From: a bacterium
GTDB taxonomy: Bacteria > Sumerlaeota > Sumerlaeia > SLMS01 > JAHLLQ01
DNA length: 64,000 bases
Assembly (NCBI GenBank): GCA_020444065.1
Contig: JAHLLQ010000001.1
Location: 806,001-870,000 of the forward strand
Direction: 5' to 3'
The notes under the pieces are model-generated. The model searched no databases, was not told the DNA's origin, and worked only from the letters and a program-made list of their open reading frames with translations. Below, piece after piece: positions 17,925-42,018 of the stretch. Numbering within the stretch: the stretch's first letter is position 1; every line of letters starts with the position of its first letter. The translations under genes were made by a program, and so were the position numbers.

Positions 17925-17976
17925 TTATCTCTCTCCTTGCTTGTCGTGTTCATTTCACGTGCGATGTTGGAGAAGG

Positions 17977-18007: not shown

Positions 18008-18032
18008 TTCCCTGTGGACGAAGAAGAATCTC

Positions 18033-19967: not shown

Positions 19968-20019
19968 TGTTGATACTCCATGCAAATGGTTTTGGGTGGT
20001 GGGCTAATGGGCCCGATTT

Positions 20020-20037
20020 CATCACTCCTGTGAAATG
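20020..20037 (-). promoter_or_regulatory. Possible degenerate copy of the fructan-cluster 18-bp motif
   Basis: Minus-strand CATTTCACAGGAGTGATG matches the motif at 23813-23830 (CACTTGACAGGAGTAAGG) at 14 of 18 positions. It lies 52 bp upstream of the beta-helix start at 19967, about the spacing seen for the better copies. TTGAC is changed to TTCAC, so function is uncertain. Confidence 0.3.
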
Positions 20038-20104
20038 GTTTGGGGTTCACCTGCTAAAGCGTCTCGACGTTTGCGATTCGTTCTTCTCGATTCGGATTCA
20101 TTAA

Positions 20105-20788: not shown

Positions 20789-23764
20789 CTAGTATCCCAT
20801 CCACCCGATCGCGTTCGCTGTTCCGGGAGTGGCAGTCGGACTCGGGGGCGGCGTAGGTGTCGGTGTAATCGGGTTCTCGCCCAGCGGCCAGATATCCAAC
20901 GAGATCACCTTGGACGTTCCACCCTGCGAATACAAGTCCATCTCCACGCTGTCCGTGCGCTGCGGATAGATCCGCGTCGTCACCACCGACCGCCTGTTCG
21001 CGAAGATCTCTATGGTAGAGCGATCGATGAATATGCGCAGCTCCAGGTTCTCGTTTCCTTCCAGCAGGTGCTGTGCAACGACGTCCCACTTCCCAACCTG
21101 GTTGCTCGTACTCGAGAGCCCGCGCTTTACGAACAGTCCACCAACAGCATTGTACTGGATCAGCGTCTGCTCCTGGCCATTGGGCGACTTGCGTACCTTG
21201 ATCCCGAAGGCGGACGCGTCCTGCAGGTCCACCAGGGCGCGGATTTCAACCATGTCGCCGCCGACTCCAGGGAGGTATCCGCTCTCGCCGGCTTCGACGA
21301 AGATATTCGTGAAGTTGTGTCGTTCGCCTCGCAACATCTCGAGTTCCGGCGCCGGCGCCTGGCGCAATTGATTGCCGTCTGCCAGCGTCAACATTCGCTG
21401 CATGGTAAACAGGTTCGCATATCCCGCGGCGAGTTGTGCCTCGCTTGTGCGATCTTCGATCATCACGCCCATCGCGTAGATCCTGCCGTCGTCCGTGTAT
21501 GAAATCGATGGCGCCAGGACATGCTCCGGGCCGAGATCGAGACGCCGAGGAGTTCCATACTCTGCGTCCGGAACGAACTTCTCATTCACCCAATCGCCGA
21601 TCCAGTAAACGACATCCACGGGACCGGGGTGACCGGGAGCAGGGATGGCGTTGACCAGGAAGATCCACTTGCCGTTCGGAAAGCGCCCGAACATTGGCAT
21701 CTCCCACATGTGGTTCACAACATCCGGCGGTCGACTGAACATAATGCCCCGATACTCCCAGTTCAACAAGTCGTGGGAGCGATACAGGTGCACTTCTCCG
21801 CCCGTGTCTTCGTAGCCGGATCCGATGATCACCCAGTACCACCCGCCATCCTGCCAGATGAACGGATCGCGGAAGCCCAGAATCCCCGGCCGCGCACCGG
21901 GAGGCAGTGCCGGCAGGACAGGATTCGTCCCCCACTTGTGAAAGTTAATGGCCAGGTCTTCGCCACTTGTCGCGACACTCTGCGTTTGGCCCTGATCGTT
22001 GCTCGTATAGAGGATAGTCAGTTCATTGTTATGAATTGTCGTCGAGCCCGACCATGTGCCGTTGCGATCGTACACGCCCTCGGGCCAGATCGCATCCGTC
22101 ACCGGGTACCAATTCGCGAAGTCCGGACTGATCAGATGCCCCCAGTGCTGATTGCCGAAATACGGGCCATTGGGGTTCTTCTGGTGGAACAGATGGTAGT
22201 TGCCGCGATAGTACTGCATGCCGTGAGGCTCGTTGGTCCAGTCCGCGGGAGGAATAGCATGCCAGCCCGGCCGGGTCGGGTCATGGGAGAAACGGCTTTC
22301 CGGGACAATGATCTCGGCGGCCGGAGGGAAACCGCCCTGATAGTGAATCAGTATTTCGTCCGCCGCCAGGGCTCGATTGTAGACTCGCACCTCGTCAATC
22401 AGGCCGTTGAAAATGCCGAGAGGGAAGATACCGAGCGCGCCGCCCTGATTATGGCGACCTATCTGAAACGGGATGTTCGAAGCAGCTTCCAGGTCACCCG
22501 CGACGAAGTTGTTCTCGGCCACCTGGCTGCCATTCAGGTAAATCCTCAGCCCCACATTGCGATCGTAGGTGCCCGCCAGATGAATCCATTGGAATTTCGG
22601 CAATGGAGCCGGCGCCACAACCGAGTGCCAATTACCGTCCGCACCGATCGAGAAGTTCCAGACACCCCAAGGGTCGACGCCAAGAAAGAAGCCGCGCGGG
22701 GCCTCCTGCTGGTTCACAATGGCCGCATCTTGCGCAGTGTAAGGAAACGCCCGCACCGCGACCCAGGCTTCCACGGTCAGTTGGCTGACATTCTGGTTTA
22801 CAACGCCAGGGCCGAAGTCTGCGAAGGTTGAGTATCCATCCGCGCGAAGCCCCTCTCCCCATGGGCCGGGGGCGAATTCCGGATCGCCAAAGTTGTTGGG
22901 AACGCCCGCCGCCTGGCCGGTCCGCCATTCCTTGATCTGCTGCTGATCGTTCAGATCTTCCATCGTAAAGCGCGCCATCAAGTCGCCCTTCGGAATGGAA
23001 CGCAGCGATCGCAGAGTATTCATTGTGAACGTTCGCAGCGCGTCGATTTTGCTGTTCCATCCACCGACGGCAAACTCGTAAGCGCCTGTGCCAATCACGA
23101 CCACGCGTCCGTCGCCAGGACGGTATTCTCCGGCCGCAACGATGTCGCCCTGCCATTCCGTATCTGCCAACCAGATCCCATCGAACTGAGATGAGTCCGG
23201 CCACCAGGCGATCTTGTTGTCCACGGAGAGGCCTGGTGCGAGCGTGGCGAACACGTCCGGCAGGCCGTCGAAGACCGCGCTTTCTGTTTTCTGAGAAAAT
23301 CCCCAGGGGCCGGAGTCGCCGGGCTCGATTGATACGGACGGCTCGGTGTCCTCGAACCCAAGGTCGACAACGTACTGGGTCGCGAATCCCGAGAGCAGTA
23401 CCCGACCGCCAGCACTCACCCAATCGGCGATCGCGGCAACCGTCGCCCCCTGCCCCGGCAGGACCACGCTCTCATCATAGTGCCACCAGAGCGTCTTGTA
23501 ATCGCCGAGAATAGACGGGTCGGCGGCGATGTCATCCAAATGAAGGTACTCGGCATCGAAAGAGGTCAGCGCCCAGTCATAGGCAGCCCGCTCCTCATCG
23601 GACAGGGAGGCGTAGCTGGCGTGGCGGCCGAGGAGGGCCAGGTCAGCCGCCGACGCCAGATTTGCCACACAGAGGGCAAGTACGACGAAAACCACCGCCA
23701 CCACAGGTGCCGAGCGGCCCGATTCGCGGAAATCTCGGGATGTTTGAAGAAGTCGGTTCGCCAC
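20789..23764 (-). CDS. Exported GH32-like protein with GATase-like and LamG domains
   Basis: 991 aa, starting at a GTG (23764); no in-frame ATG exists upstream before a stop at 23801. The signal peptide ends near ASA-A (residue 39). Modules: one GATase-like domain (about 40-260; GGRVLLSGFATQY, KIAWWPDSSQFDGIWLAD, GDGRVVVIGTGAYEF), a LamG-type module (about 275-480), GH32 catalytic and sandwich domains (about 498-955), and a linker PTPTPPPSPTATP ending NAIGWMGY. As in the operon paralogue the nucleophile motif is WTNEPHG with Glu512 in place of Asp; FRDPFIW (Asp633) and WEMP (Glu688) are present. The 18-bp motif lies 48 bp upstream. Probably a fructan-binding or fructan-degrading extracellular protein; hydrolytic activity is uncertain. 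Confidence 0.86.
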   Translation of the reverse strand: MANRLLQTSRDFRESGRSAPVVAVVFVVLALCVANLASAADLALLGRHASYASLSDEERAAYDWALTSFDAEYLHLDDIAADPSILGDYKTLWWHYDESVVLPGQGATVAAIADWVSAGGRVLLSGFATQYVVDLGFEDTEPSVSIEPGDSGPWGFSQKTESAVFDGLPDVFATLAPGLSVDNKIAWWPDSSQFDGIWLADTEWQGDIVAAGEYRPGDGRVVVIGTGAYEFAVGGWNSKIDALRTFTMNTLRSLRSIPKGDLMARFTMEDLNDQQQIKEWRTGQAAGVPNNFGDPEFAPGPWGEGLRADGYSTFADFGPGVVNQNVSQLTVEAWVAVRAFPYTAQDAAIVNQQEAPRGFFLGVDPWGVWNFSIGADGNWHSVVAPAPLPKFQWIHLAGTYDRNVGLRIYLNGSQVAENNFVAGDLEAASNIPFQIGRHNQGGALGIFPLGIFNGLIDEVRVYNRALAADEILIHYQGGFPPAAEIIVPESRFSHDPTRPGWHAIPPADWTNEPHGMQYYRGNYHLFHQKNPNGPYFGNQHWGHLISPDFANWYPVTDAIWPEGVYDRNGTWSGSTTIHNNELTILYTSNDQGQTQSVATSGEDLAINFHKWGTNPVLPALPPGARPGILGFRDPFIWQDGGWYWVIIGSGYEDTGGEVHLYRSHDLLNWEYRGIMFSRPPDVVNHMWEMPMFGRFPNGKWIFLVNAIPAPGHPGPVDVVYWIGDWVNEKFVPDAEYGTPRRLDLGPEHVLAPSISYTDDGRIYAMGVMIEDRTSEAQLAAGYANLFTMQRMLTLADGNQLRQAPAPELEMLRGERHNFTNIFVEAGESGYLPGVGGDMVEIRALVDLQDASAFGIKVRKSPNGQEQTLIQYNAVGGLFVKRGLSSTSNQVGKWDVVAQHLLEGNENLELRIFIDRSTIEIFANRRSVVTTRIYPQRTDSVEMDLYSQGGTSKVISLDIWPLGENPITPTPTPPPSPTATPGTANAIGWMGY

Positions 23765-25361: not shown

Positions 25362-27371
25362 TCAGTCGCCTCGATTGGAACTCCACTGCTCCAGGTTGCC
25401 GCGTTCCTCAGGAAACGCCGTCGACATCGCCCACGCGTCGAATTGTGAAAGTCGAGCCTTCCCTCCTTCCGCGAACAGGGCAATCGACTGATGATCCGGA
25501 GGCACGTCGATCACGCGCGTGAAACATGCTCGGCCGTTCACAAAGATCTCGATCACGGACCTGTCGAGGAACACGCGCAGGTCGACCGGCGCGCCTGGGG
25601 CTTGCAGCCTGTATAGCCTCTCGTCGCCGTCGACACGAACTTCCGACCCATCGCAGACGATCGCTGTGCCACCGACCCCGTTCTCATTCGTCCGAACCAG
25701 GAGCCCAAACCTGTTCGCACTCCCGGCCTCGATGGTCAGGCGCAACTCCAATGTATCGCCCTGCACCTGGGAAATAACCGTGGTTCCGTCATTCACGTTC
25801 ATGGGCCCAATCCGCGTGTGCTTGCCGCGAAGTTTCTGTAACGCGGGCAGGGGTTCGAAGTTAAGGCCACCGTCTTCCGCAAGTGTCAGAATGCGCGGCA
25901 AGGATTGCACTCCATTCCACCCCTTGTCGTCGGGGAATCCGCGCACCCAGCCCCACATCACGCGCCGGCCTTCTGCATCGATCGTCGAGGTTGGTGCATA
26001 ATACCATTCTCCGTGATCGATCATCCCGCTGTGCCTCGGAGCGAATGTTCCGGACTGCTCGTTGAATGTGCCGACAGTGTACTCTGCTCTCCATCCGGGC
26101 AGCGACATCACCAGGACGAACTGATCGCCCAAAGGAAAGAAATTCGGGCACTCGATATTCGCCTCGGTTGGATGTTGGTACAGGATGCCTCGGTACTGCC
26201 AGTTTCCGAGCGTGGGATCCGCTCCTTCGTACAGCGCCACCACCCCACGATACTGATCGGCTGCAGTCTGGATATTGCCGCCCAAAACCATGTAGGCCCT
26301 GTCACGAAGGCGAAACATGAAAGGGTCACGCCATTCGTAGATGATCTGGTCGCCGTTGATAGCCGGTGTCATGATGGGATTTGCTGGCGGTTTTTCCCAG
26401 GCGATCAGATCTTCATCCCTGGGTCGAACGATCCACTGCTCGGCGTAATCACGGGCCGAGGGGCTGGCCTTGATGCTTGTGTAGAAGAGCATTGGCTTGC
26501 CCTTCTCGTCCAAAGCTGCACAACCGGACCAGGCGCCAACCTCACCGAGCTCAATCGACGGCCAGAGAGCCACCGGCAGGTGCTCCCAAGTCACCATGTC
26601 TCGACTGCGCGCATGCCCCCAGTACATTGTATCCCAACGATCCCCAAAGGGGTTGTGTTGATAGAACAGGTGATACCAGCCTTCGTAGAGAAGTGGCGCA
26701 TTCGGATCGTTCATCCAGAGCGCTGGTGGTCGGAAGTGATATGTCGGACGGCGGGGATCCTCTTCTGCCCAGGAGACTGCTCCCAGGACACTGTTCCAGG
26801 CTTCTTGAACTTTGGGGTTGTCAGTAGTTTTCATCGCTCTCCGATCGCTCTGCACAATGTAGTCAACGGCGAGGTGCCCCCATGCATCGGTTGCCTGGTC
26901 GACAACAACGATTCGAGCAGAACGGCCAATATAGGGCATAACATTCCACGAAACCCAGCGGAGATGTTCGCTGTCTCCACCATGTGAAGCCGTCCCGGTT
27001 GCACTGGCGACTTTCTCACCTCCGATGTACAATTCCAGACAAGCGCTTCCCGGGATGTTTCCTCCTCCAATGAGGAAGTTGATGTACTTCCGCTCGATCG
27101 TGAATTCGGGTGAGATCAAGTATCCGGTGGCCCCATCGCCATAGCTGAATGTGTTGACAAGTCGGCTTCCATGAAATGAGGCGACCGGTCGCTGATCGCC
27201 AATCGCTCCGCCTGCCGGCCCCAGGGCAAATGCAGTGCCGAGAGGAATCCATGGCAGGAAACTGTCGCGCTCGAAATCGTCCAAGACCAAGTCGGATCGG
27301 GCGCAACCATTCAGCAACAGAGAGAACGCCATCAGGGCTGCCAGGGTTCGTATACCCCTCATGAATGTCAT
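25362..27371 (-). CDS. GH32 beta-fructosidase lipoprotein
   Basis: 669 aa. The signal peptide is of lipoprotein type (AFSLLLNGC, Cys23), so the protein is membrane-anchored. The ATG at 27371 has GAGG 8 bases upstream; ATG 27362 is an alternative. Residues about 28-180 form the N-terminal module common in GH32 proteins of planctomycete-like bacteria (DFERDSFLPW; FSYGDGATGYLISPEFTI; AWGHLAVDYIVQSD). The catalytic domain has WMNDPNA (nucleophile Asp222; final Gly replaced by Ala), WRDPFMF (Asp349) and IECPNFF (acid/base Glu407), then the beta-sandwich with RVFLDRSVIEIF. All three catalytic acids are present, so it should be an active exo- or endo-fructanase. The 18-bp motif lies 62 bp upstream. 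Confidence 0.91.
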   Translation of the reverse strand: MTFMRGIRTLAALMAFSLLLNGCARSDLVLDDFERDSFLPWIPLGTAFALGPAGGAIGDQRPVASFHGSRLVNTFSYGDGATGYLISPEFTIERKYINFLIGGGNIPGSACLELYIGGEKVASATGTASHGGDSEHLRWVSWNVMPYIGRSARIVVVDQATDAWGHLAVDYIVQSDRRAMKTTDNPKVQEAWNSVLGAVSWAEEDPRRPTYHFRPPALWMNDPNAPLLYEGWYHLFYQHNPFGDRWDTMYWGHARSRDMVTWEHLPVALWPSIELGEVGAWSGCAALDEKGKPMLFYTSIKASPSARDYAEQWIVRPRDEDLIAWEKPPANPIMTPAINGDQIIYEWRDPFMFRLRDRAYMVLGGNIQTAADQYRGVVALYEGADPTLGNWQYRGILYQHPTEANIECPNFFPLGDQFVLVMSLPGWRAEYTVGTFNEQSGTFAPRHSGMIDHGEWYYAPTSTIDAEGRRVMWGWVRGFPDDKGWNGVQSLPRILTLAEDGGLNFEPLPALQKLRGKHTRIGPMNVNDGTTVISQVQGDTLELRLTIEAGSANRFGLLVRTNENGVGGTAIVCDGSEVRVDGDERLYRLQAPGAPVDLRVFLDRSVIEIFVNGRACFTRVIDVPPDHQSIALFAEGGKARLSQFDAWAMSTAFPEERGNLEQWSSNRGD

Positions 27372-27649: not shown

Positions 27650-30607
27650 ATGTCCCGTTCGCGTGGTCTGAAATCCTCTCTCTTCGCACTTCTTGTGGGT
27701 ATCCTTGGCCTCTCTGCGATGCAGGACGCTCCAGCAGAGGGGGCAGTCGTTCTCGGCGCAGTTTCTTCGTTCGACGACCTGACTTCCGAACAGCTCAAGG
27801 CCTACGAGTTTGCCATCGGGAGCTGCGGGGCGCAGCTGCTGACATTCGATGAGATCGCGGCCGATCCCGGGGCGTTCGACGATGTGGATGTCGCCTGGTG
27901 GCACGAGGATGCCTCCACAGATTTGCCTGAGGCAGCAAATGACGCCACGGTCCTTAGCCAAATCCAAGGTTTCGTCGAGTCGGGTGGCGGCCTGCTTCTC
28001 ACGGGGTTCGCTCCCCAGTATGTCCTGTCCCTGGGCTACGAGGACACGCCTCCTTCCCTTGTTATCCAAGATCCAACAACATCGGGTGAATGGGGATTCC
28101 GCCAAAGGGAGCCTGCGCACCCGATCTTCAACGGCCTGCCTGAGACATTTCTCGTCCTGTCAAGTAACCTGACCGTCGATAACAATATTGTCTGGTGGAA
28201 CGATCCTACCCGCTTTGACGGCAGGTGGCTGGCAGACACCGAATGGTCGGGCTACCTGGTGACAGTCGGGGAATACACGCTCGAACAGGGACGCATCCTT
28301 CTCGTCGGCACAGGAGCCTTCGAGTGGGATCATCCGGGAGAGAACCTTCACCGCGACAATCTGGAATTGTTCACGGCGAACATTTTGGATTATTTGACGA
28401 CCCCTCTGCCAACCCCGACTCCCTCACTGACGCCGACACCGACTCCCCAGCCCGGCGAGGACATTGTGCTGGCCGACTTCGAATGGTCCCACTGGAATGG
28501 CTGGTCGGCCACCGGCACTGCGTGGGGAGGTGCGCCCTCCACGGGAGCGCCCGCAAGCAACTTCCTGGGCGGGAGCTATGCCAGTTCCTCGTACGGTGGC
28601 GATGGAGCCACAGGGGTCCTGACCTCCCCCCCATTCCTCATCAATCGCGATTATCTGAAGTTCCTGACCAGTGGTGGATCGTACCTTGAGGCGAGCGGCT
28701 ACGGCGGGCAGACGCGCGTCAACCTGCTGATCGATGGAGAAGTCGCGAAATACGCTGCGGGCAGCAGCCAGACCAATCGCATGGATTGGCTGGAGTGGGA
28801 TCTTCGCGATCTCCAGGGGGCGACTGCCCAGATTCAACTGACCGATACGGCTACTGGCCCGTGGGGGCACCTCAACATCGATCACATCGTCTTGTCGAAC
28901 TCTCCTCTGAATGACCTGTTTGCCATCGACAGGAAATACCTCAATATCCCGGTGCGCCTGGATCGTCCCGAGAGAGTCGTTGATCTCTTGATCGATGGAC
29001 TGGCGGTTGAGGAGTTTAAGATCAACCTGGGCACGCCGACAGATCACGACTTCTATGCATTCATCGAGATGAGTGCTCACATGGGCGAACGGGCGCTTCT
29101 CCGTGTAGATGCCACCAACGTGCAGGATGTTTCCCAGTTCCCTCTCAGGGACGAAATCATCACCGACACTCCCATTTACGAAGAACCACTGCGCCCACGC
29201 TATCACTACACGGCACGCCGCGGCTTCATGAATGACACCAATGGCATGGTCCACTTCAACGGCGAATACCATCTTTCTTACCAGCACAATCCCTTCCAGC
29301 TCAGGGTCGGCAACCAGGTGTGGGGACATGCCGTCAGCACGAACCTGGTGCATTGGCTTGAACTCCCCACTGCGATCAACGGCGATGCGCTTGGCCAAAT
29401 CTGGTCGGGATCCGCTGTCGTGGATACTGCGAACACCTCAGGTCTGGGCGAAGATGCCATTGTGAGCTTCTACACGAATGCCGCGGGTTATGGGAACAAC
29501 AACATCATGTCGGCGGGACAGAACTTCACCCAGAGCTTCGCCTACAGCCTTGATCGCAATCGGACACACATCAAGTACCGCAACAATCCCGTCTTGCTGA
29601 ATCAGCCGCCCGGCGATAATCGCGACCCTTATGTCTTCTGGTACGAACCCGATCAGAAGTGGATCATGTTGCTCTGGTTGCGCAATAATCCCAGCACGTT
29701 CGCCTATTTCTCATCTCTCGATCTGATCGAGTGGACGAAGACGTCCGAGTTCATCTTCGATGGAGTGATCGAGGTGCCGATGCTCTTTCAACTCCCGTTG
29801 GATGGAGACGAGACGGACATGCGATGGATTCTCTGGGCGGGCGACGGCCACTACTACATTGGCCAATTCAACGGCGAGTCATTCACGCCCGCAAACGGTC
29901 CCTTCTGGATGCCGGGGGCAACGGATAGCAATTTCATCATGGCCGCTTCGCAGATCTTCAGCAACATGCCGGATGGCAGGAAGATCTTGATGGCCAATGA
30001 TAACAGTGCACGTGACTTTCCCGGGATGCCCTTCAACAAAATGCTCACCTTCCCCGTGGAGCTGAGCCTGCGCACAGACCCGAGCGGCTCACCATGGATC
30101 TACGCAAATCCTGTTGAAGAGATTGCCGAACTCATCGAAGAAACACGCGAGTGGACTAATGTACCCCTTGGCGGCTCCAATGCTATTCCGAACACGTGGG
30201 GCGAAGCCTACATGATCGATGCGAGTTTCGAATGGGGTAGTGCCAGTTCGCTGACCTTCGACCTCGGAACAGCCGAAGTCACCTACAACATTTCTACACG
30301 GACTCTCAGTTGCACGCCGGATGGAGCGCATACATCCAGTCGCCACATGGATGGCTCAACACCTCTTGGCGATTCGTTGCGCTTGCAGATCCTTGTCGAT
30401 GTTGGATCGGTAGAGATCTTCGGCAATGACGGGCACCGCTACATGACGATCGCAGTACCGCCCAGAGCCGGAGAGCAGTCGCTGTCGCTGACGGCTCAGG
30501 GATCAGGCGCCGTGCTCAAACAGATGTTCCTTCACAAGCTTGGTTCCTGCTGGGAACGCACGCCGGAACCACCTGCGATTCGGGGCGAGGGTCTCTTCCT
30601 ATACTAA
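27650..30607 (+). CDS. Exported divergent GH32 protein with GATase-like domain
   Basis: 985 aa, ATG with AAGG 8 bases upstream. An N-terminal signal segment (to about residue 32) precedes one GATase-like domain (about 33-250; VAWWHEDAS, GGGLLLTGFAPQY, NNIVWWNDPTRFDGRWLAD, GRILLVGTGAFEW). A PTPTPSLTPTPTPQP linker (about 253-270) leads to the GH32-associated N-terminal module (about 275-420, closely like that of the 669-aa lipoprotein: YGGDGATGVLTSPPFLI), then GH32 (about 515-970). The catalytic motifs are divergent: FMNDTNG (Asp529, Pro replaced by Thr), NRDPYVFW (Asp659) and IEVPMLF (Glu708, Cys replaced by Val). The three acids remain. It ends RGEGLFLY. It faces away from the rest of the cluster and is transcribed divergently from the lipoprotein gene. 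Confidence 0.84.
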   Translation: MSRSRGLKSSLFALLVGILGLSAMQDAPAEGAVVLGAVSSFDDLTSEQLKAYEFAIGSCGAQLLTFDEIAADPGAFDDVDVAWWHEDASTDLPEAANDATVLSQIQGFVESGGGLLLTGFAPQYVLSLGYEDTPPSLVIQDPTTSGEWGFRQREPAHPIFNGLPETFLVLSSNLTVDNNIVWWNDPTRFDGRWLADTEWSGYLVTVGEYTLEQGRILLVGTGAFEWDHPGENLHRDNLELFTANILDYLTTPLPTPTPSLTPTPTPQPGEDIVLADFEWSHWNGWSATGTAWGGAPSTGAPASNFLGGSYASSSYGGDGATGVLTSPPFLINRDYLKFLTSGGSYLEASGYGGQTRVNLLIDGEVAKYAAGSSQTNRMDWLEWDLRDLQGATAQIQLTDTATGPWGHLNIDHIVLSNSPLNDLFAIDRKYLNIPVRLDRPERVVDLLIDGLAVEEFKINLGTPTDHDFYAFIEMSAHMGERALLRVDATNVQDVSQFPLRDEIITDTPIYEEPLRPRYHYTARRGFMNDTNGMVHFNGEYHLSYQHNPFQLRVGNQVWGHAVSTNLVHWLELPTAINGDALGQIWSGSAVVDTANTSGLGEDAIVSFYTNAAGYGNNNIMSAGQNFTQSFAYSLDRNRTHIKYRNNPVLLNQPPGDNRDPYVFWYEPDQKWIMLLWLRNNPSTFAYFSSLDLIEWTKTSEFIFDGVIEVPMLFQLPLDGDETDMRWILWAGDGHYYIGQFNGESFTPANGPFWMPGATDSNFIMAASQIFSNMPDGRKILMANDNSARDFPGMPFNKMLTFPVELSLRTDPSGSPWIYANPVEEIAELIEETREWTNVPLGGSNAIPNTWGEAYMIDASFEWGSASSLTFDLGTAEVTYNISTRTLSCTPDGAHTSSRHMDGSTPLGDSLRLQILVDVGSVEIFGNDGHRYMTIAVPPRAGEQSLSLTAQGSGAVLKQMFLHKLGSCWERTPEPPAIRGEGLFLY

Positions 30608-30741
30608 TCGGTGGGCTCGAGAGAGTCAGCCCGTCGTAAGATCCTAAATCTCGCTCCAACTCCCAAATGAACTTCGCAGGCAGCTCCGAAACCTATTCGG
30701 AGGGAAAAGAAACGCACTTCATCCATCATCATTCATCTGTA

Positions 30742-30849
30742 CCAGAATTTGTCGAAACTAATGTGGATTCTGAGAATTTTGAGAAATGCGAGATTCTGGA
30801 AGCACAGTAGTACCAGCATTCTCTGCGTTTTCGGAAGTGCCATTATCGA
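30742..30849 (+). repeat. 108-bp direct repeat, copy A
   Basis: About 97 of 108 positions match copy B at 41006-41113 by eye, in the same orientation and without gaps. It includes the last codons and the 3' flank of the IS3-type transposase remnant, so it is probably the 3' end of an insertion sequence. Copies A and B bracket the GH13/GH31 module. Confidence 0.8.
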
Positions 30850-31048
30850 TCCGGCCGACTTCCGCCGGGGCATGGCTCCCGAGGGAACCATGCGGCCGCA
30901 CTTCGTCGTAGTCCTTGCGCCAGGCATCCACCTTCTCGTGCGCATCGCCCCGCGACAAGAACCAGTGGACATTCAAGCACTCCTTTCTCAGTTGTCCATT
31001 GAAGGATTCGATGAAGGCGTTGTCCGTGGGCTTGCCGGGACGGCTGAA
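30758..31048 (-). pseudogene. IS3-family transposase (OrfB) C-terminal remnant
   Basis: The minus-strand translation from 31048 reads FSRPGKPTDNAFIESFNGQL and continues RKECLNVHWFLSRGDAHEKV and WRKDYDEVRPHGSLGSHAPA. This is the conserved end of the IS3-group rve integrase core, including the last catalytic Glu (in NAFIESFNG) of the DDE triad. The two catalytic Asp residues and everything upstream are missing; the open frame before residue FSRP does not look like transposase. It is therefore a 5'-truncated, inactive remnant. Confidence 0.85.
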
Positions 31049-31476
31049 GCAAGGAGAGCAATGCATAGGCTGATTCCGCCAGTGACGAAACGAGAGAGTG
31101 ACATAGTATCCTCCATAAGGGCGAGCAACTGACTCTTGCGGTGCGCGAAAGAACGACGCCTCATGCGCCCTCGCTATTTCAAGGTAACGCGAGAACAACG
31201 AGAGCTGCACCCGCAGATTGGCTGGCAATCAATGAAGAACGGCACGGAGAACGCCATGCGTCCTCGCACCTGGTGCTCGATCATCCCTGCCTCCCAAGAT
31301 TGTTGCTGTCATTACTATCATCAGAGAACAAGAGGTCCAGTCGTGTTTGTTCGGCACTCTCCCCAGAGACTCGGTTTCAGGTCTTCGATCAGTGGTTCAA
31401 TCGCGGGCATCCTGGCGATTCGGGACGTATTCCCTGGAGCGGTCCAAAATCGAAAGTCTTCTGCGGGTTTTCGTAA

Positions 31477-31543: not shown

Positions 31544-33814
31544 ATGAAGAGAACGTGTACTCGATACCCATTTGCTGCTGCGGCATTTTCCGCTGTTGCG
31601 TTCATTCTACTCACCAGCGGAGCCAACGCTTTTCCGACTTGGATTGGTGTTTATGGCGGATATGTGCGCCACGATGGGGGGAACCCCGGGGAATTCACGG
31701 TCTTGATGAATCAGAATTACTATGGGCTGCATGCTCAAGTGGGCATCAAGATCAACGATCAGGCCTATACACGGTACAGCATGTCCTGGGATGGTTCGCC
31801 CAATGGCGATTCACGCTGGAAGTACTCGCCAGCCCAGGCGTTTCCTCCCGGTGCCACTGTTCAGTACTACTTTCGTGGTTACGATGACTGGGGCGGCGTG
31901 ATCTACGACAGCAATAACGGGAACGATTACAGTTTCTCGATCCCCACCCCGACGCCGAGCCCATCGCCGACGCCAAGTCCTACGCCAACGCCCTCGCCAT
32001 CGCCATCCCCGAGTCCTTCGCCGACTCCGACGCCTTCGCCCACGCCGAGCCCAACTCCGGTGGTGCTGTCCGCATACGCCGGGATGGGAGCGATTCCATA
32101 CAGTGGTGGAACGACATTCCGAGTCTGGGCTCCCAACGCAGACTCTGTATCGGTGATGGGGAGCTTCAATGGATATGATAAGGACGCCAATCCGTTGGCA
32201 TTCGAGACGTCCTCGTCGGATGGCCTGTGGTCGGCGGACGTGGTCGATGCAGTCCCGGGCGATGACTACGAGTACGTGATCCGCTACGAGGATCAGACAC
32301 TGTATCGAACAGACCCGCGTGCGCTCCAGGTGGAGAACTCGGTGGGCAAGGGTATCATCGTGGATCCGGAATGCGACTGGAGCAGTTTCTCGACTCCTCC
32401 CTTCCACAAGCAGGTCATTTACGAACTGCACATCGGCACGTTCAACGACAACCCAGGTGGCGCGCCGGGGACTTGGAACAGTGCGACGCAAAAGTTGGAT
32501 TACCTGCACGATCTGGGCGTCAACATGATCGAAGTCATGCCGGTTGGCGAGTTCGCCGGCGACTTCTCCTGGGGATACAATCCCGCGTTCCCATTCGCTC
32601 CGGAGAGCGCATACGGGACTGTGGACGACATGCGGAATTTCGTCGAGCAGGCGCACCAGCGCGACATGGGTGTCATCATCGATCTGGTGCACAATCATTG
32701 GGGACCGAGCGATCTTGATATGTGGTGCTTCGACGGGCCAAGCTACGGCAATGGTGGGATCTATTTCTACTCGGATTGGAAGAAGAGCACACCCTGGGGC
32801 GATACGCGGCCGGACTATGGGCGCTATCAGGTGCGCAAGTACATCAAGGACAACGCGCTCTACTGGCTGGAGGACATGCACTGCGATGGATTGCGGTGGG
32901 ACTCGACGACCAACATCGACGTAGGCGACGGCTGGAATCTTATGCAGTGGTGCAACGACAAGATCGATCAGAGCCAATCATGGAAGATCTCGATCGCGGA
33001 GGACCTCCAGAATAACGAGTGGGTCACGAAGGCGACAGGTGCGGGCGGGGCAGGGTTTGACTCGCAGTGGGACGCGGGGTTCGTGCATCCGATTCGCGCT
33101 GCGATCATTACGACGAACGACAGCGACCGCGACATGTACTCGGTGCGAGACGCGATCACCCACAAGTACAACGGCGATCATGTTCAGCGCGTGATTTACA
33201 CCGAGAGCCATGATGAGGTGGCGAATGGCAAGTCGCGTGTGCCGGAGGAAATCTGGCCAGGCAACGCAGATAGCTGGGCGTCGCAGAAGCGCTCGACATT
33301 GGGCGCTGCGATTGTGATGACCTCTCCCGGTATTCCGATGATCTTCGAAGGGCAGGAGTTGCTCGAGGATCGCTACTTCCAGGACACCGATCCGATCGAC
33401 TGGACTCGCGCGACAACCTTCAACGGGATCCACGACCTCTACCGCGATCTGATCCGCCTGCGGCGAGACTGGTACAGCACGACGAAGGGATTGCAGGGAA
33501 ACAATGTGAATGTCTTCCATGTGAACAACAGCGCGAAAGTCATTGCCTACCACCGTTACGATGCCGGCGGGCCCGGTGATGATGTCATCGTCGTGGCGAA
33601 CTTCTCGAATAGGTCCTTCTCGAGCTACAATATTGGATTCCCGCGCGGGGGAACGTGGAAGGTGCGTTTCAACAGCGACTGGAATCACTATGGACCGTTC
33701 GATAACTTCTATGCGTACGACACGGTCGCCAATTCCGGCGGGAAGGATGGGTTCGGATACAACGGCAATATCGGAATTGGGAAATACACAGCGATTATTC
33801 TCTCTCAGGATTAA
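31544..33814 (+). CDS. Exported GH13 alpha-glucanase of the branching-enzyme/trehalohydrolase type
   Basis: 756 aa; AAAGGA precedes the ATG by 9 bases. The signal peptide ends near ANA-F (residue 29). Residues 30-133 form a small beta-sandwich that resembles starch-binding modules ([33 protein letters not shown]). A long Pro/Ser/Thr linker (about 135-173) follows. Next come a CBM48-type domain ([20 protein letters not shown]) and the GH13 barrel with region I DLVHNHWG, region [11 protein letters not shown] (nucleophile Asp453), region III ISIAEDL (acid/base Glu486) and region IV TESHDEV (Asp557). The arrangement is like GlgB or maltooligosyltrehalose trehalohydrolase, but here secreted. Activity on alpha-glucan is well supported; the exact product is not. 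Confidence 0.88.
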
Positions 33815-34015: not shown

Positions 34016-36532
34016 ATGAGAATCGCCCATTCAACCGGTTTCGTTTGTCTTGCCATTTCGGGAATCCTGTTGTCGGGCTGTGCCACGCAGCCACCGGCAG
34101 AGAAGCTGGCGGTTCGCGGCGGTGGCTCAGTCTCGGGCCAGCCTATCTGGCCTCTCGCCTATTCTCCGCGTATCTTGTCCGAGACAAGAATCGTCAATGG
34201 CGTCCCCGAGGAGGTCGAACTCGATGGATGTGTGAGGGGAGAGATCACGGACATCCGGATTCTTGGCGTCGAAGGAGGCGCGGGCATCTCGGCCTCTGTG
34301 AAACGGGGAACGATTCTCCAGGTCGAGTCTCTTCCGGATATCGTGCAGCAAGGCGTCGTCCATTTGCTCCTGACAACTTCCGATGGGATGAAGTGGCCGG
34401 TAGGCTTCCCCGTCAGCGCAGAGAGTTTGCCGTCTCGCCGAATCACGTTTCAGGCGGAAGAGGGAACGCGCCCGAAGAGCGTTTCGATCGCCGGCCAGTT
34501 CAACGGATGGAATTCATCGGCCAACCCTCTCTCGGACGATGAGGGGGATGGAATCTGGGAGACCGTTGTCTCGATCCCGCCGGGGAAGTGCTCCTACAAG
34601 TTTGTTGTGGATGGGAACTGGCTTCTCGATCCTGCGAACCCGAACACCGTGATGGATGGAGGACATGAGAATTCGCTTCTGGTTGTTGGCGGTGAACGGC
34701 GCGCCGACAATTCCCCATTGCCGATCTTTGTTCTTCCCGCAGGGGCGCCCGGAATAGGCCCACAGGGCGGCTTCTACGTTCAATTGACGGATGATGCTCG
34801 GCTGGCAGCCGACGGCGTCGATGTCTTTGTAAACAACGTCCCGCTCTTGGCTGATGAGATCGACGTGGCTGCCGAGACGGGCCTGGTCAGTTTGAAAGTC
34901 CCAGAGGATAAATGGAGCTCTCAGCAATCTGTATCAGTCGTGGCCAGGGATACGACTGGGCGGACGGGATCGAAGGCAGCGCCCTTCGACTTCGCTGATG
35001 CACCGCGGTCGCCGAAGGATGAGACTATCTACTACGTGGTCCTGGATCGTTTCAAGAACGGGAATCCATCAAACGACGACCCAGTCGACGATCCTGAGGT
35101 TCATCCGTTGAATAACTTCGCGGGTGGCGACATCGCTGGCGTTCGGCAGATGATCGACAGCGGATACTTCGATGATCTCGGAGCAACGACGCTCTGGATT
35201 TCGCCGCCATATGTTCAGCCGGATATTGCCTTCAAGGATTCCAAGCCGCCGCACCGGAAGCTGACCGGATATCACGGCTACTGGCCCACGGATATGCGGA
35301 ATGTCGAGCCGCGATGGGGCACGGTGGAAGAATTCCGTGCAATGGTGGATGATGCACACCAGCACGATATGGCGGTCATTATCGACTTCGTCAGCAATCA
35401 TCTGCACGAAGATAATCCCATGGTGAGGGAGCATCCCGATTGGTTCTCGAAACTCGAACTGCCGGATGGAACATTGAATATTCGCCAGTACGATACCCAT
35501 CCGTTCACCACCTGGTTCGATGACTTCCTTCCGGACATCGCTTACGATAAATCCTCCGAGGCTACTGACTACATGACCAATACGGCAGTCTGGTGGTTGG
35601 AAGAAACCAACGCCGATGGATTCCGCCACGACGCGGTGAAGCATGTTCCAAATGTCTTCTGGGAAACGACGACACGGAAGTTGAATGAACAGATTGCGGA
35701 ACCCGCCAAGAAGCGCATCTACCAGGTTGGTGAGACCGTCTCGTCGCGATCCACCATCAACCACTTCATCGGTCCCCGCTTGTTGGACGGGCAGTTCGAT
35801 TTCCCGCTCTTCTGGTCCATCGAAAGCGCTCTGGCATGGGAAACTTCGAGCATGAGCGATTTGGCTGGAAGTTTGCAGGAGAGCGTCGATGATTATCCGG
35901 TTTCCGCGATCATGAGTCCTTTCATCGGCAATCACGATGTACCTCGTTTCATGAGCAAAGCGGAGTACGACAGTTTGCCCGGGAAAAAGCACGAGGCCGA
36001 GGAAGACTCTTTCACAAATCCGGCACACGTTGATGATTCGCAGTCTTACGAGAAACTCAAGCTGGCATTCTCTTTTCTTCTAACCGTACCCGGTGGCCCG
36101 ATGATGTACTACGGCGACGAGATTGGAATGACGGGATCCGGCCGACCGGACAGCCGACGCATGTTCCTGCCACCCGAAGCGTGGGATAGGAATAACCAGG
36201 ACACGTATCAGACGGTCCGAGCGCTTCTTCATGCTCGGCAGGAAAGTATCGCCCTCCGGCGTGGAGACTATCAGTTGCTGCAATCCGGCGAGGAACACAT
36301 CGTATTCGCACGCATTTCGCCGGAAGAAGTCGTCATCGTTGCACTACAACGTAAAACGGATGAGCAGCCACCCATGATTGTAGATATTCCCGAAGCCTGG
36401 GGGCACCCGGTTGGAATCGAGGCGCTTGCTTTGAATGGTCTGGGGGCAACGAGTGCAGGAATAGTCGAAGGCGGACGAGTCAGAATCGAAGCGACTTCGT
36501 ATTCTGGCGGGGCCTGGCGACTCGTCTGGTAA
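34016..36532 (+). CDS. GH13 alpha-amylase lipoprotein (cyclomaltodextrinase/neopullulanase-like)
   Basis: 838 aa; GGAG lies 6 bases before the ATG. The lipoprotein signal GFVCLAISGILLSGC is cut before Cys22, so the enzyme is membrane-anchored. A CBM48/AMPK-type glycogen-binding domain occupies about residues 140-225 (SVSIAGQFNGWNSSANPLSD; GKCSYKFVVDGNWLLDPANP). The GH13 barrel follows (from about 325) with IIDFVSNH, GFRHDAVKH (nucleophile Asp539), YQVGETV (acid/base Glu573) and FIGNHDV (Asp641), then a C-terminal sandwich domain. MMYYGDEIGMTG is the conserved end of the barrel. It would produce maltodextrins from starch or glycogen. Confidence 0.9.
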   Translation: MRIAHSTGFVCLAISGILLSGCATQPPAEKLAVRGGGSVSGQPIWPLAYSPRILSETRIVNGVPEEVELDGCVRGEITDIRILGVEGGAGISASVKRGTILQVESLPDIVQQGVVHLLLTTSDGMKWPVGFPVSAESLPSRRITFQAEEGTRPKSVSIAGQFNGWNSSANPLSDDEGDGIWETVVSIPPGKCSYKFVVDGNWLLDPANPNTVMDGGHENSLLVVGGERRADNSPLPIFVLPAGAPGIGPQGGFYVQLTDDARLAADGVDVFVNNVPLLADEIDVAAETGLVSLKVPEDKWSSQQSVSVVARDTTGRTGSKAAPFDFADAPRSPKDETIYYVVLDRFKNGNPSNDDPVDDPEVHPLNNFAGGDIAGVRQMIDSGYFDDLGATTLWISPPYVQPDIAFKDSKPPHRKLTGYHGYWPTDMRNVEPRWGTVEEFRAMVDDAHQHDMAVIIDFVSNHLHEDNPMVREHPDWFSKLELPDGTLNIRQYDTHPFTTWFDDFLPDIAYDKSSEATDYMTNTAVWWLEETNADGFRHDAVKHVPNVFWETTTRKLNEQIAEPAKKRIYQVGETVSSRSTINHFIGPRLLDGQFDFPLFWSIESALAWETSSMSDLAGSLQESVDDYPVSAIMSPFIGNHDVPRFMSKAEYDSLPGKKHEAEEDSFTNPAHVDDSQSYEKLKLAFSFLLTVPGGPMMYYGDEIGMTGSGRPDSRRMFLPPEAWDRNNQDTYQTVRALLHARQESIALRRGDYQLLQSGEEHIVFARISPEEVVIVALQRKTDEQPPMIVDIPEAWGHPVGIEALALNGLGATSAGIVEGGRVRIEATSYSGGAWRLVW

Positions 36533-37833: not shown

Positions 37834-40512
37834 TCAGTTCCGGCTCAACCGCAGTTGCGCTTCTCCAGCGAGAGATTTCCACCGCAACACAGTGGCCTGA
37901 ACGCCGTCGTCCCAACGTACAGAATCCGGGGCATTCGTTGCTCCCTGTTCCATCGTGAGTCTCTGGTGCATGAGGTGAACCTCAAGTGGCCGGGATTGAG
38001 AGACAGAGATGGTCAGATCGATTCTCTGTTCCACAGGACTCGCGGCTTCCACGCTGATTCCCTCCGTTGTTGCAACAGAAGGGGCGCCGGGCCAGATCTG
38101 CAGGATGCGGCGATCATCCATCGTCACAACATCATCGGACAACTTGGAAGATGCCGGAACAAGGGTGTCGACATCGGCCGGGAGCATCGGAATCACTGAG
38201 CCCGCGGCGACGTAGAGCGGAATCCGATCCATCGGCGCGTAGGCCTCGATGTACCTCCCGCCGGCGATTCTCTCGCCCGTCCACCAGTCTATCCACGTCC
38301 CTCGCGGGATATAGACGCTGCGGTGAGTTCCAGGTTGGTAGATTGGCGCAACGAGAATTGAAGGCCCGAACAGGTATTGGAAGTCCTCGCGACTGGCAAT
38401 CGGATCGCTCTGGAATGCCAGGACCATTGGGCGGATGATTGGCATACCAGTCTCATGCGATTCTTTCGCGGCCGCATAGATGTACGGGAAGAGCTGTGTG
38501 TGCAACTTGGCGTACTGGCGATAGATGTCGAGGGACTCTTCGCCGAAACTCCATGGGCCGAGATTCGATGTCATGTGAAGTTGCATCAATGGCGAGAAGC
38601 ACCCGAACTGCGTCCAGCGATTGAAGAGCTCCGGCGTTTGCGTGCCGTGGTAGCCGGAAATGTCATGTCCCCACAGCGAAATCCCAGAGAGAGCTGCTGT
38701 CTGGCCAGCTCGGATCACACCCGGCAGACCATTCTCAAAATCCCAGCCTGCGTGATTATCGCCCGCCCAGCAGTAGGGGAATTTCTGCGTCCCGGCAAAT
38801 CCCGGACGTGCAAAGAGAACGCCGTCGCCATCCATCCGTTCATCGATGTACTTCTGCATGGTTTCGAGATAGAGATACCCAAAGCGTCCCTTCATCTCTG
38901 CCGGTGTCGATCCGTCGTGCAATACGGCATCCAGGACGAATGTGCCTTCGCCATCGTCGCACTTCCAAGCCTTCACACCCCACTTCTTTGTTTTGTCCAG
39001 TTGCTCGAACCACCACTGAACGGCCTCAGGATTCGTGAAGTCCACAAGCCCGCCCTTTCCCTTCCACCAATCAGAGATCATGACCTCGCCATCGGAGTTC
39101 TTCACCAGGAAGCCTTCGTCCGCCGCCTCCTGGAAATTGCTTGAAGGCCCCTTCGCGATTCCGTGCATGTCCTGGACGTTTTCGCTGTTCACAAATGGCG
39201 TCAGCCACAGGCATGTGTAGAAACCGAGTTCTTCCACCCGATCGAACATGGCGCGGGGATCTGTGAACTGCTCGTCGTTCAGCACGAAGTCGTTGTAGCC
39301 GCGCTCCCAGGGACTGTCGATCACCAACACTGAACCGGGAAGATCGTACTGTCGATACTTCTCCACATCCTCAAGCACTTCCTCGCGGTCATTATGCACA
39401 TTGCGGCTCTTCCACGGAGCGAAAGACCAGACTGGAGGGACTGGCGGGCGACCGGTTAGCGCGGTGTACTCCTTCAGCGTATCGCTCAGATCCGGTCCCG
39501 CGATGAAGACCACGCGCAGTTTGTACTCGGTGTAGTTCAGGTGACAGGTGGAACGCTCAGTTGCATTCAAGTCGAATGTTCCGGGCGTGAAGCTATCCAC
39601 CCACACGCCGAAGCCGGAGGAGTTCATGATGAATGGGACGGGCTTGTAGGAAACGGCTCCCTTCTCTCCGGGGTGATCCATGCTGCGCATCGGAAGGATG
39701 TAGCCCTTCTGGTTGATCGAATTGAATCGTTCGCCACCCCCGTAGTAGGAATCGTTGCCCGGCACGCCGAGATCCCATTCATGAAGCCCGCCATCTTCTG
39801 CTTCATAAGTCAGAGAGACTGAACGAGCACCGGCGCATTCGACCGTGAGCACAATCGTCCCATTCGCCAACCGCCCCGGTTGCGAGGAATCGATCACTAG
39901 ATCCTTTTGGGGAACTCCATCCATGACGATGGGTGGAATGAGCAGGTTTCGGCTCACGGTTCCGCGCTCGTTCAAGAATGCGATCATGAGTTGGCTCTTG
40001 GATTCGACCATCGAAATGCGCGCGGCCGAACATGAGATTAGCGCCTCCAGCGTCTCCGGCGGATTTTCCGGATCATAGATGGAGTTTCCATGATCGCCCG
40101 TGCCAGGAACGAACGGATCCGCGGTCCATTCCATCCCGCCGTCCTTTCGCGTGATCACGAATTTGTACTCCGTTCGTCCCGAGGGGATTTGTGCGACTTT
40201 ATACCAGACACCATTCGGAGCAGCCTGCTCCATGGATCCAGTCGAATCATTGGATTCGTATCCTGTCCAGTTGTTGAATTGCCCGGCCAGAAAAACGTTC
40301 GCAGCCTCCGGAGCCTCGAAGGTGAATAGCACGCCGCCTTCCACCTCCCTCGGAGGGCCTGCCTTCTCGATGAAGACAGGTTCCGCGCCCAGACTCGCGG
40401 CGACGATCAACATCAGGAACAAGAACGGCGGAATGAAATGGGAGGAACGAACGCACGCGAGCGCAAACGCTACGAATGAAGTTTTGCGATCTCTTGAGAA
40501 GAGCATATTCAT
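37834..40512 (-). CDS. Exported GH31 alpha-glucosidase with N-terminal CBM48-like domain
   Basis: 892 aa; AGGAG lies 6 bases before the ATG. A long N-terminal hydrophobic segment (about residues 27-43, cleaved near LGA-E) directs export. Residues about 55-150 are a CBM48/AMPK-type module (ANVFLAGQFNNWTGYESND; EYKFVITRKDGGMEW). GH31 N-domain, barrel and C-terminal sandwiches follow: PPVPPVWSFAPW, the nucleophile motif AWKCDDGEG (Asp519) and the acid/base motif WAGDNHAGWDF (Asp585), then SGISLWGHDISGYHG. The family includes alpha-glucosidases, alpha-xylosidases and transglucosidases; next to two GH13 enzymes an alpha-glucosidase is most likely. It is transcribed toward the XylR-type gene, with a 1-bp gap between stops. 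Confidence 0.9.
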   Translation of the reverse strand: MNMLFSRDRKTSFVAFALACVRSSHFIPPFLFLMLIVAASLGAEPVFIEKAGPPREVEGGVLFTFEAPEAANVFLAGQFNNWTGYESNDSTGSMEQAAPNGVWYKVAQIPSGRTEYKFVITRKDGGMEWTADPFVPGTGDHGNSIYDPENPPETLEALISCSAARISMVESKSQLMIAFLNERGTVSRNLLIPPIVMDGVPQKDLVIDSSQPGRLANGTIVLTVECAGARSVSLTYEAEDGGLHEWDLGVPGNDSYYGGGERFNSINQKGYILPMRSMDHPGEKGAVSYKPVPFIMNSSGFGVWVDSFTPGTFDLNATERSTCHLNYTEYKLRVVFIAGPDLSDTLKEYTALTGRPPVPPVWSFAPWKSRNVHNDREEVLEDVEKYRQYDLPGSVLVIDSPWERGYNDFVLNDEQFTDPRAMFDRVEELGFYTCLWLTPFVNSENVQDMHGIAKGPSSNFQEAADEGFLVKNSDGEVMISDWWKGKGGLVDFTNPEAVQWWFEQLDKTKKWGVKAWKCDDGEGTFVLDAVLHDGSTPAEMKGRFGYLYLETMQKYIDERMDGDGVLFARPGFAGTQKFPYCWAGDNHAGWDFENGLPGVIRAGQTAALSGISLWGHDISGYHGTQTPELFNRWTQFGCFSPLMQLHMTSNLGPWSFGEESLDIYRQYAKLHTQLFPYIYAAAKESHETGMPIIRPMVLAFQSDPIASREDFQYLFGPSILVAPIYQPGTHRSVYIPRGTWIDWWTGERIAGGRYIEAYAPMDRIPLYVAAGSVIPMLPADVDTLVPASSKLSDDVVTMDDRRILQIWPGAPSVATTEGISVEAASPVEQRIDLTISVSQSRPLEVHLMHQRLTMEQGATNAPDSVRWDDGVQATVLRWKSLAGEAQLRLSRN

Positions 40513-40884
40513 GAAATACTCCTGCCTGAGATTGGCGGAATAGAAAGCAAACGTCTGAGAAGACAGCTAGTCGATCGGGATTCGGCAATCAATTACACAA
40601 TCCCTCATAAGACTTCCGACATCGCAGGCTGCAGCGCTGATCGTTGGCCTGCCGACTTTGCGAACCAACCGACTTGGACCTCCGAAGTGAGAGGCTCCAT
40701 GTTCAATTGTAGACATGCAAAGCGTGCCTGTTGCTATGTCACGGCGCCCCCAGCACTTAACCCCATTGAAAAGAGGTCGACAGGGCCGGATTGAGGTGCA
40801 ATTAGCACCTGTTGCACACGCACAGGTCCGCTCCTGCCTTTAGGGCGGGTCGTGGACTTTTGAGTTGTGTGGAAATAAAGGTAG

Positions 40885-40933
40885 TCGGGGTGGCGAGACT
40901 CGAACTCGCGCCCCCCTGCTCCCAGAGCAGGTG
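40885..40933 (-). pseudogene. tRNA-Pro(UGG) 3' fragment, degenerate
   Basis: The minus strand from 40933 down to 40885 gives the anticodon arm CCTGC-TCTGGGA-GCAGG, the T-arm GCGAG-TTCGAGT-CTCGC, the 3' acceptor strand CACCCCG and discriminator A. This is the 3' two-thirds of a bacterial tRNA-Pro. Position 33 of the anticodon loop is C instead of the invariant U, the D-loop is shortened (TCTGG-CGCACC), and the matching 5' acceptor strand (CGGGGTG) and D-stem start are absent; no CCA is encoded. It is therefore a truncated tRNA, as left by an integration or deletion event. Confidence 0.7.
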
Positions 40934-41005
40934 CGCCAGAACTCTAATAAGGAGTGATTGGATCTGGTCGGGATTGGCCTCAATCCAGTTGTGCCAGAAT
41001 TTGTG

Positions 41006-41113
41006 CCGGAATTCGTCGAAACAGATGTGGATTCTGAGGACTTTGAGAAATGCGAGATTCTGGAAGCACAGTAATACCAGCATTCTCTGCGTTTTCGGGG
41101 GTGTTATTATCGA
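41006..41113 (+). repeat. 108-bp direct repeat, copy B
   Basis: Same orientation as copy A (30742-30849), about 90 % identical. The minus-strand translation (PENAENAGITVLPESRISQS) matches the tail of the transposase remnant at copy A, but no transposase core is present here, so this is a solo IS end. Its right edge runs into the tRNA-Ser fragment. Confidence 0.8.
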
Positions 41114-41131
41114 ATCCCGCCCTCTCCGCCA
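41110..41131 (+). pseudogene. tRNA-Ser 3'-end fragment (possible attachment-site core)
   Basis: TCGAATCCCGCCCTCTCCGC followed by CA is the T-loop, 3' T-stem, 3' acceptor strand and encoded CCA end of a bacterial tRNA-Ser. The rest of the tRNA is missing and the repeat takes its place. A terminator follows 50 bp downstream, as expected after a tRNA gene. Such 3' ends are common targets of tyrosine integrases; no integrase is present in the window. Confidence 0.6.
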
Positions 41132-41180
41132 GATTTTTTTGTAGAAATTGCTGCACTTGCAGCGACTGAATTGAAGGAAA

Positions 41181-41206
41181 CCCCCTGCTCTTGGGGGCTT
41201 TTTTTC
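41181..41206 (+). terminator. Rho-independent terminator after the tRNA-Ser remnant
   Basis: CCCCC (41181-41185), a seven-base loop and GGGGG (41193-41197) are followed by C and seven T residues. This is a classic terminator on the plus strand, now orphaned downstream of the tRNA-Ser fragment. Confidence 0.8.
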
Positions 41207-41342: not shown

Positions 41343-41909
41343 TCAGGAGGACTTCTCCCCCTGTTCGCGGGCGAGGTGGAGCATGCGATCCAGGATGGCT
41401 TTGCGCTGCTCGGGGGTGAAGGGTTCGTGGTCGACGAGGTGGAAGAACTTCAGTCCGTGCGCGGCGAGCCAGATAATGGCAGCGTCGGCGTTGAAGTTCT
41501 CCCGTTTGCCCCACAGACGATTCTCGAGGTCGTCGAATCGGTCGGATGCGGCTCGGGCGATTTCGGGTTCATTGGCGATGGCAGCGATGATCGCGACGCC
41601 GATCTGGCGATCGTAGAGCGGGTCCTTTTCGGAGGCCTGCGTCGCTTGGAGGTAAGCTTCCAGCTCGGACTTCATGTTGGGGCCAAGGCGCTTGACTTCG
41701 GCTTCGTGGGCAGCGATGGCCGCCTTGCAATGAGCGTCGAGAATTGCGGCGATCAGGGCCTGCTTAGTCTTGAAGTGATAAAGCAGCCCGCCCTTGCTGA
41801 TGCCTGCTTCGGCGGCCACGGCATCGAGCGTCAGGTGCGCAGCGCCGTCCCGAGCCACGATTGTCTCGGCGGCTTTCAGAATACGCTCCTTTGAACTTGG
41901 GCGCGCCAT
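41343..41909 (-). CDS. TetR-family transcriptional regulator
   Basis: 188 aa. The ATG at 41909 has GAAGGG 8 bases upstream and is preferred over a TTG two codons earlier. The TetR N-terminal helix-turn-helix is clear: KERILKAAETIVARDGAAHL then TLDAVAAEAGISKGGLLYHF and KTKQALIAAIL. The C-terminal ligand domain is of the size usual for this family and has a late segment LWLAAHGLKFF-like (IIWLAAHGLKFFHLVDHEPF). TetR proteins mostly repress adjacent efflux or metabolic genes; the neighbours here are recQ upstream and the tRNA debris, so no target is evident. It shares the strand of recQ, 109 bp downstream of it. Confidence 0.88.
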   Translation of the reverse strand: MARPSSKERILKAAETIVARDGAAHLTLDAVAAEAGISKGGLLYHFKTKQALIAAILDAHCKAAIAAHEAEVKRLGPNMKSELEAYLQATQASEKDPLYDRQIGVAIIAAIANEPEIARAASDRFDDLENRLWGKRENFNADAAIIWLAAHGLKFFHLVDHEPFTPEQRKAILDRMLHLAREQGEKSS

Positions 41910-42018
41910 GTGCAATTCCCTTCGAGTGTGGGATACCCCAATACCCCAGTTCGGTTCAATCTCCCCCGGGGGCTCCTACTGGGCAAACAAAATCCCGGGG
42001 CCGGTCAAAACGGTTCCG

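Follow-up and report, generated by a model that had tools for sequence, protein, structure and literature searches.

According to the sections of the Islander paper considered here (PMC4383910), genomic islands can be delimited by two marks, a tRNA gene that was regenerated upon integration and the displaced fragment of that same gene, which together form the endpoints of the island, and the T loop of the tRNA is among the named crossover sites. Here, we analysed a 64,000-nucleotide stretch of DNA from a member of the Sumerlaeota (G000:C1:806001-870000, hereafter the window), which contains a locus with a comparable layout. As in the Islander islands described in those sections, an intact tRNA gene is followed downstream by a 3' fragment on the same strand, and the distance between them, 79.9 kb, falls within the 2-200 kb range (PMC4383910). 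The att block of the T-loop/J class reaches from the T loop to the CCA end, as it does here (PMC4383910). There is one difference, since Islander, as described there, demands an integrase open reading frame inside the island (PMC4383910), whereas no tyrosine integrase was detected in the island proposed below.

The fragment, TCGAATCCCGCCCTCTCCGCCA, is located at 41110-41131 (+) of the window, corresponding to 847110-847131 on contig C1, and is identical in 22 of 22 positions to the CCA-containing 3' end of an intact tRNA-Ser(GCT) gene located further upstream on this contig, in the same orientation (C1:767177-767269), directly behind uvrC, as recognised with Pfam. The common block runs from the T loop to CCA, a short att identity of 22 bp, and the 5' part is missing from the window copy. 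ARAGORN found no tRNAs in the window, therefore the tRNA-Ser sequence at 41110-41131 is not a complete gene. When the whole genome was scanned for the TCGAATCCCGCCCTCTCCGCCA pattern with at most one mismatch, three sites were returned, tRNA-Ser(GCT), tRNA-Ser(GGA) at C6:9043, and the window fragment itself, and the reversed pattern gave no match. An exact 22-mer matching one of three tRNA-Ser ends is expected only ~2e-8 times by chance in 64 kb, counting both strands. The fragment lies outside any conserved coding domain, as the three open reading frames that overlap it matched no Pfam family at E ≤0.001. A terminator-like stem (41182-41197) starts 50 bases past the CCA and is followed by a run of T, the two together occupying 41182-41206 (+). 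The initial annotation of this DNA had already noticed the terminal 22 bases of a tRNA-Ser with CCA and a terminator 50 bp beyond them, and both observations hold. Its start at 41101 was 9 bases too early, because 41101-41109 belong to the neighbouring repeat, and its statement that the fragment begins exactly where repeat copy B ends is accurate to within about 4 bases, as the homology between repeat copies A and B extends to a common TCGA. According to that annotation, its reading would fail if no tRNA-Ser of this genome shared these 22 bases, and tRNA-Ser(GCT) has all of them.

As independent support, a two-breakpoint G+C model was fitted over C1:750001-890000. The best breakpoints, 767200 and 847400, are both within 300 bp of the att blocks, which start at 767248 and end at 847131, and the G+C content is 0.570 within the island and 0.600 outside. 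On a 1-kb grid, none of 8,515 interval pairs equalled the G+C score of the att-bounded interval, and among 600 equally long placements only 3 reached it. The first called gene outside the island, at 41343-41915 (-), encodes a TetR-type regulator (Pfam), and its G+C content is 0.62. Judged from sequence, C1:767177-767269 and 41110-41131 most plausibly represent the attL and attR sites of a genomic island of ~79.9 kb (~C1:767270-847109), of which the window holds positions 1-41109, as delimited by the att sites and the G+C breakpoints. Probably, a foreign block of DNA of about 80 kb was once spliced into the chromosome at this tRNA-Ser, and the tRNA-Ser end in the window most probably constitutes the right attachment-site half of what is now a decayed island. 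An attachment-site half had been one of two explanations offered in the initial annotation, which suggested looking for an intact tRNA-Ser at the other edge of an island; such a gene is indeed present, on the same strand, and this gene, the composition edges and a block with a deviating G+C content and distinctive cargo all support that explanation.

In the course of events that we propose, the island would have entered by site-specific recombination in the tRNA-Ser(GCT) gene, within the stretch that begins in the T loop and closes with the 3' terminus, presumably by the action of a tyrosine recombinase. The element's own copy of the 3' end would have made the tRNA-Ser whole again at the left edge (attL, C1:767177-767269), and the original 3' end with its terminator would have been displaced to the right edge (attR, 41110-41206). 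The integrase of the island would since have been lost, leaving beside attR a short segment, named X below, that probably holds its last codons and the arm-site repeats, and the island is presumably immobile by itself now. We have high confidence in this explanation as a whole, namely that the window contains the attR of a ~79.9-kb tRNA-Ser(GCT) island with fructan/glucan cargo and a lost integrase.

The cargo is distinctive. In the 5.2-Mb genome, the glycoside hydrolase family GH32 (PF00251), a fructan-digesting type, gave eight matches, which represent seven genes, and all of these are located inside the island at 771.9-836.1 kb. Those in the window, assigned with Pfam, are a GH32 gene with DUF4960 and laminin G-like domains (8722-12345, -), three further GH32 genes (12309-14459, 20789-23764, and 25362-27371, all -), and another with DUF4960 (27650-30607, +). 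Towards the right edge these are followed by two genes for alpha-amylase-domain proteins (31544-33814 and 34016-36532, both +) and one for a GH31 glucosidase-type protein (37834-40512, -), the last complete called cargo gene before the edge. Pfam scans covered 39 called island proteins, and these comprised the 7 GH32 proteins, two Opp-type ABC transporter sets, two PfkB kinases, the two amylase-domain proteins, the GH31 protein, LacI-type regulators, a LacI/AraC-like fusion, beta-helix proteins, giant surface-type proteins, and a Ser/Thr kinase. Phage structural, conjugation, and SusC/SusD families were absent from these 39 proteins. By domain content, the cargo appears to serve mainly the utilisation of fructan- and glucan-type carbohydrates. 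Three of four genomes from the same family have no PF00251, and the fourth has one match, which scores 38 bits. In a wider set from the class, PF00251 is present in 20 of 41 genomes (own genome included), in some with more than 200 bits, so GH32 is not foreign to the class.

Two other features of the island content were observed. It contains two diverged but similar modules, one at L005:1390-14634 (-) and one at 2580-20719 (-) of the window, which have in common an Opp-type ABC set, GH32 genes, PfkB, a beta-helix protein, and a protein with an N-methylation motif, as if one cluster had undergone duplication or had been taken up on two occasions. Near attL, at C1:767608-769650 (L086:1608-3649), a gene for a CAP12/Pycsar-type TIR protein (PADLOC candidate PDC-S35) is followed by two NYN-domain genes, and these left-edge genes are possibly defence genes.

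An empty site, with uvrC, tRNA-Ser(GCT), and TetR/RecQ together, was searched for in relatives that all belong to other genera, with no congener among them. It was not found by way of TetR or RecQ, nor in the uvrC regions of four relatives, nor was there a site match among the matches listed when family and class members were searched with tRNA-Ser plus uvrC DNA. Within the 4.5-6 kb examined near uvrC in four relatives, tRNA-Ser(GCT) was absent; in one relative (G013), a tRNA-Ser(GGA) lies at a contig end, 2.2 kb past uvrC. A relative that bears RecQ (L087) has no tRNA at that locus, and the nearest named RecQ match was from a Candidatus Sumerlaeota MAG with 57% identity, in a search that may omit the window's own genome, and makes membership of the genome in this phylum probable. 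When the flanks downstream of tRNA-Ser at 18 loci of relatives were compared with the outer flank of attR, no convincing homolog emerged. One of them, from G001, begins with a similar run of T, but this is too simple to count as homology.

Segment X, repeat copy B of the initial annotation, is ~120 bp long, occupies 40990-41109 (+) at the right end of the island, and adjoins the att core. Three copies are present in the genome, copy B, copy A at 30735-30864 (+), and a copy at C13:21313-21433. Copy B and the C13 copy directly adjoin tRNA-Ser 3' ends, those of two different tRNA-Ser genes, and do so at about the same nucleotide. Because X meets a different tRNA-Ser 3' end on C13 too, X is, to judge from these contexts, an element end that comes to lie next to tRNA-Ser 3' termini and not a copy of IS3. 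At the start of X a 12-bp sequence, TGTGCCRGAATT, occurs twice in tandem (40990-41013, +), and the C13 copy has a tandem repeat as well. Towards the tRNA, a reading frame is open in all three copies and closes with different stop codons, TAA, TAG, and TGA, at one and the same position, and a 12-nt indel between the copies keeps the frame. In the window this open tail, VPEFVPEFVETDVDSEDFEKCEILEAQ followed by the stop, spans 40991-41074 (+). Based on the tandem 12-bp repeats, the open tail, and the different stops at one place, we infer that X comprises the 3'-terminal part of an integrase gene that has since been lost, together with possible integrase arm-type sites, in which case at most 27 codons of the island's integrase remain.

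That an integrase should end here is plausible because the integrases of relatives can end beside tRNAs. Among 20 integrase loci of relatives, which were picked for length and weak score and not at random, six have a complete tRNA within 70 bp of the integrase end, facing the integrase. At two others, L272 (G035) and L274 (G018), the sequence directly after the integrase resembles, to the eye, the remnant of a tRNA 3' end in the same orientation, which is the layout proposed for the window site, and at the remaining 12 neither a complete tRNA nor a remnant was recognised. In the own genome, one of eight integrase loci examined (L015) ends ~10 bp from a tRNA-Leu. A tyrosine integrase, which the initial annotation had suggested looking for, was not found in the island, and none of the eight PF00589 matches that a six-frame scan of the genome returned is located at 767-847 kb. 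Like the lack of an empty site among the relatives, the shortness of the att identity and the occurrence of GH32 elsewhere in the class, this counts against the island explanation.

It is quite possible that X is not an integrase tail but only non-coding DNA of an attP arm, or the end of some other gene. No integrase with an X tail was present in 39 genomes of the class, in which only the three own copies and one match with E 0.1 were found, the latter not accepted as a relative of X. Likewise, the VPEFVPEF pattern had no integrase-like C-terminal context in viral contigs among the matches listed (at least 120 loci, by a rough motif test). Moreover, 11 of the 13 codons that differ between copy B and the C13 copy alter the amino acid, as do two of four between copies A and B. 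Against a non-coding origin speak the frame that is open in three copies, the three stop codons at one position and the in-frame indel, and the integrase genes of relatives show that such a gene can end right beside a tRNA end.

The presence of copy A within the island leads to a second alternative, which refines the island explanation and does not replace it. The island might be a tandem or composite of two X-ended elements lying side by side, the first ending at copy A (836.9 kb) with the GH32 genes in its cargo (767-837 kb), and the second ending at copy B (847.1 kb) with the amylases and GH31 as cargo (837-847 kb), while the inner tRNA fragment was lost or swapped for IS3. Copies A and B have the same orientation and are ~10.26 kb apart, and copy A, which is 86% identical to X and its edge, has kept the TCGA edge. 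It is the only copy fused to a truncated IS3 transposase, a C-terminal scrap with rve_3 (Pfam; 30865-31228, -) that is cut off where X begins; judged against the IS3 copy at C6:2-58, canonical IS3 sequence ends at that point, and this scrap occupies the place where the inner tRNA fragment would be expected. However, no tRNA fragment was recognised at copy A, another rearrangement could explain a duplicate X, and neither half contains an integrase, and we regard a tandem make-up as conceivable but tentative. Within 30735-31228, the stretch at the X/IS3 junction matches the tRNA-Ser end by eye in 13 of 22 positions, which makes it a possible secondary site of attachment.

On C13, X adjoins a displaced 3' end that derives from another tRNA-Ser, CGAATCCCCCTCTCTCCGCCA (C13:21292-21433). 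The 3' flank and terminator at this end resemble those of the intact tRNA-Ser(GGA) at C6:9043-9132, and based on this similarity we propose a second island that would span both contigs, leaving C13 at its end and continuing from the start of C6, between C13:21313 and C6:9042. This proposed island is not distinct in G+C content (0.621 inside versus 0.624 outside on C6, and 0.593 inside versus 0.568 outside on C13). An IS3 copy is located at the C6 contig end (C6:2-58).

The right edge of the first island carries a second tRNA scrap. A displaced 3' part of a tRNA-Pro(TGG) gene (40882-40943) with 90 bp of its 3' flank, together 40792-40943 (-), is identical in 140 of 154 alignment columns to C12:55656-55809. 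It is located ~170 bp from the tRNA-Ser fragment, in the opposite orientation, and its start faintly resembles a site at 24.2 kb on C13, 2.8 kb from the X copy there. The 47 bp between this scrap and X, taken together with the tRNA-Pro start, scored 64.5 against C13 and at most 36.5 elsewhere, with 177 kb of stretches from C1, C6, C12, and C3 as background and the query's own place excluded. The 47 bp alone scored 32.5 against C13, which is no better than shuffled sequences (mean 28.8, maximum 39.5), so that their recurrence on C13 is suggestive. The sequence hints at a second attachment event at the tRNA-Pro scrap. A more far-reaching reading, which we consider rather unlikely, combines these observations into a family of integrative elements with X as common right end that insert into various tRNA-Ser genes at their 3' ends. 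Copy A would have recombined into an IS3 transposase gene that resembles a tRNA-Ser end as a secondary site, the carbohydrate cargo would have been moved before the integrase was lost, and a tRNA-Pro att system (40792-40943, with the faint partner at 24.2 kb on C13) would have been stacked alongside. If true, integrations of two or more kinds would have left their layers at the right edge.

The tRNA-Pro piece with its 90 bp of flank shows that tRNA scraps do scatter in this region, and the tRNA-Ser piece might be a chance or homologous-recombination copy and the composition edge a coincidence. Such a chance origin is very improbable in view of the correct orientation and configuration, the proximity of both breakpoints (≤300 bp), and the X-tRNA-Ser junction that is found again on C13. 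Least credible is the other explanation offered in the initial annotation, the scar of an IS3-type element that inserted into a tRNA-Ser gene whose 5' part was afterwards deleted: IS3 scraps do occur in the island (C1:769974-770126 and 836.8-837.2 kb) and copy A is fused to one of them, but X, which adjoins the tRNA-Ser fragment without IS3 sequence, is not an IS3 end, since canonical IS3 continues differently from the X start (C6:2-58), no IS terminal inverted repeat was recognised next to the fragment in the comparison with IS3, the junction with X falls at nearly the same nucleotide in two different tRNA-Ser ends, and a random IS event gives no matching composition edge 80 kb away at an intact tRNA-Ser.

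The preferred explanation, a tRNA-Ser(GCT) island that has lost its integrase, would place all detected GH32 genes, and with them a whole catabolic capability, on one sharply bounded tRNA-inserted island in the uncultured and little-studied phylum Sumerlaeota, and would turn a repeat that was formerly taken for an IS copy into the end of an element. As far as the main texts of two Sumerlaeota papers go, GH32, inulin, fructan, and sucrose are unmentioned in the one (PMC8092238), where the word island occurs once, as a place name, and GH32, fructan, genomic island, and integrase are unmentioned in the other (PMC10866078).

With respect to its content, the island resembles other described systems. 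Catabolic islands and polysaccharide-utilisation clusters have their glycoside hydrolases, transporters, kinases, and regulators clustered in a single block, as is the case here. It differs from polysaccharide-utilisation clusters in its transport functions, for which there are two Opp-type ABC systems in place of SusC/SusD among the 39 proteins scanned. With respect to the attachment site, a viral contig (L400, IMGVR_UViG_3300031673_000039) carries the same tRNA-Ser 3' end ~250 bp from an integrase with Arm-DNA-bind and PF00589 domains, which lends support to the island explanation. As in the window, a complete tRNA is lacking according to ARAGORN, and short repeats are visible by eye on both sides of the tRNA-Ser end, towards which the integrase points. 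Unlike at our locus, the integrase is intact and the contig is viral. The mechanism of insertion into a tRNA gene is textbook knowledge, and this instance of it is new.
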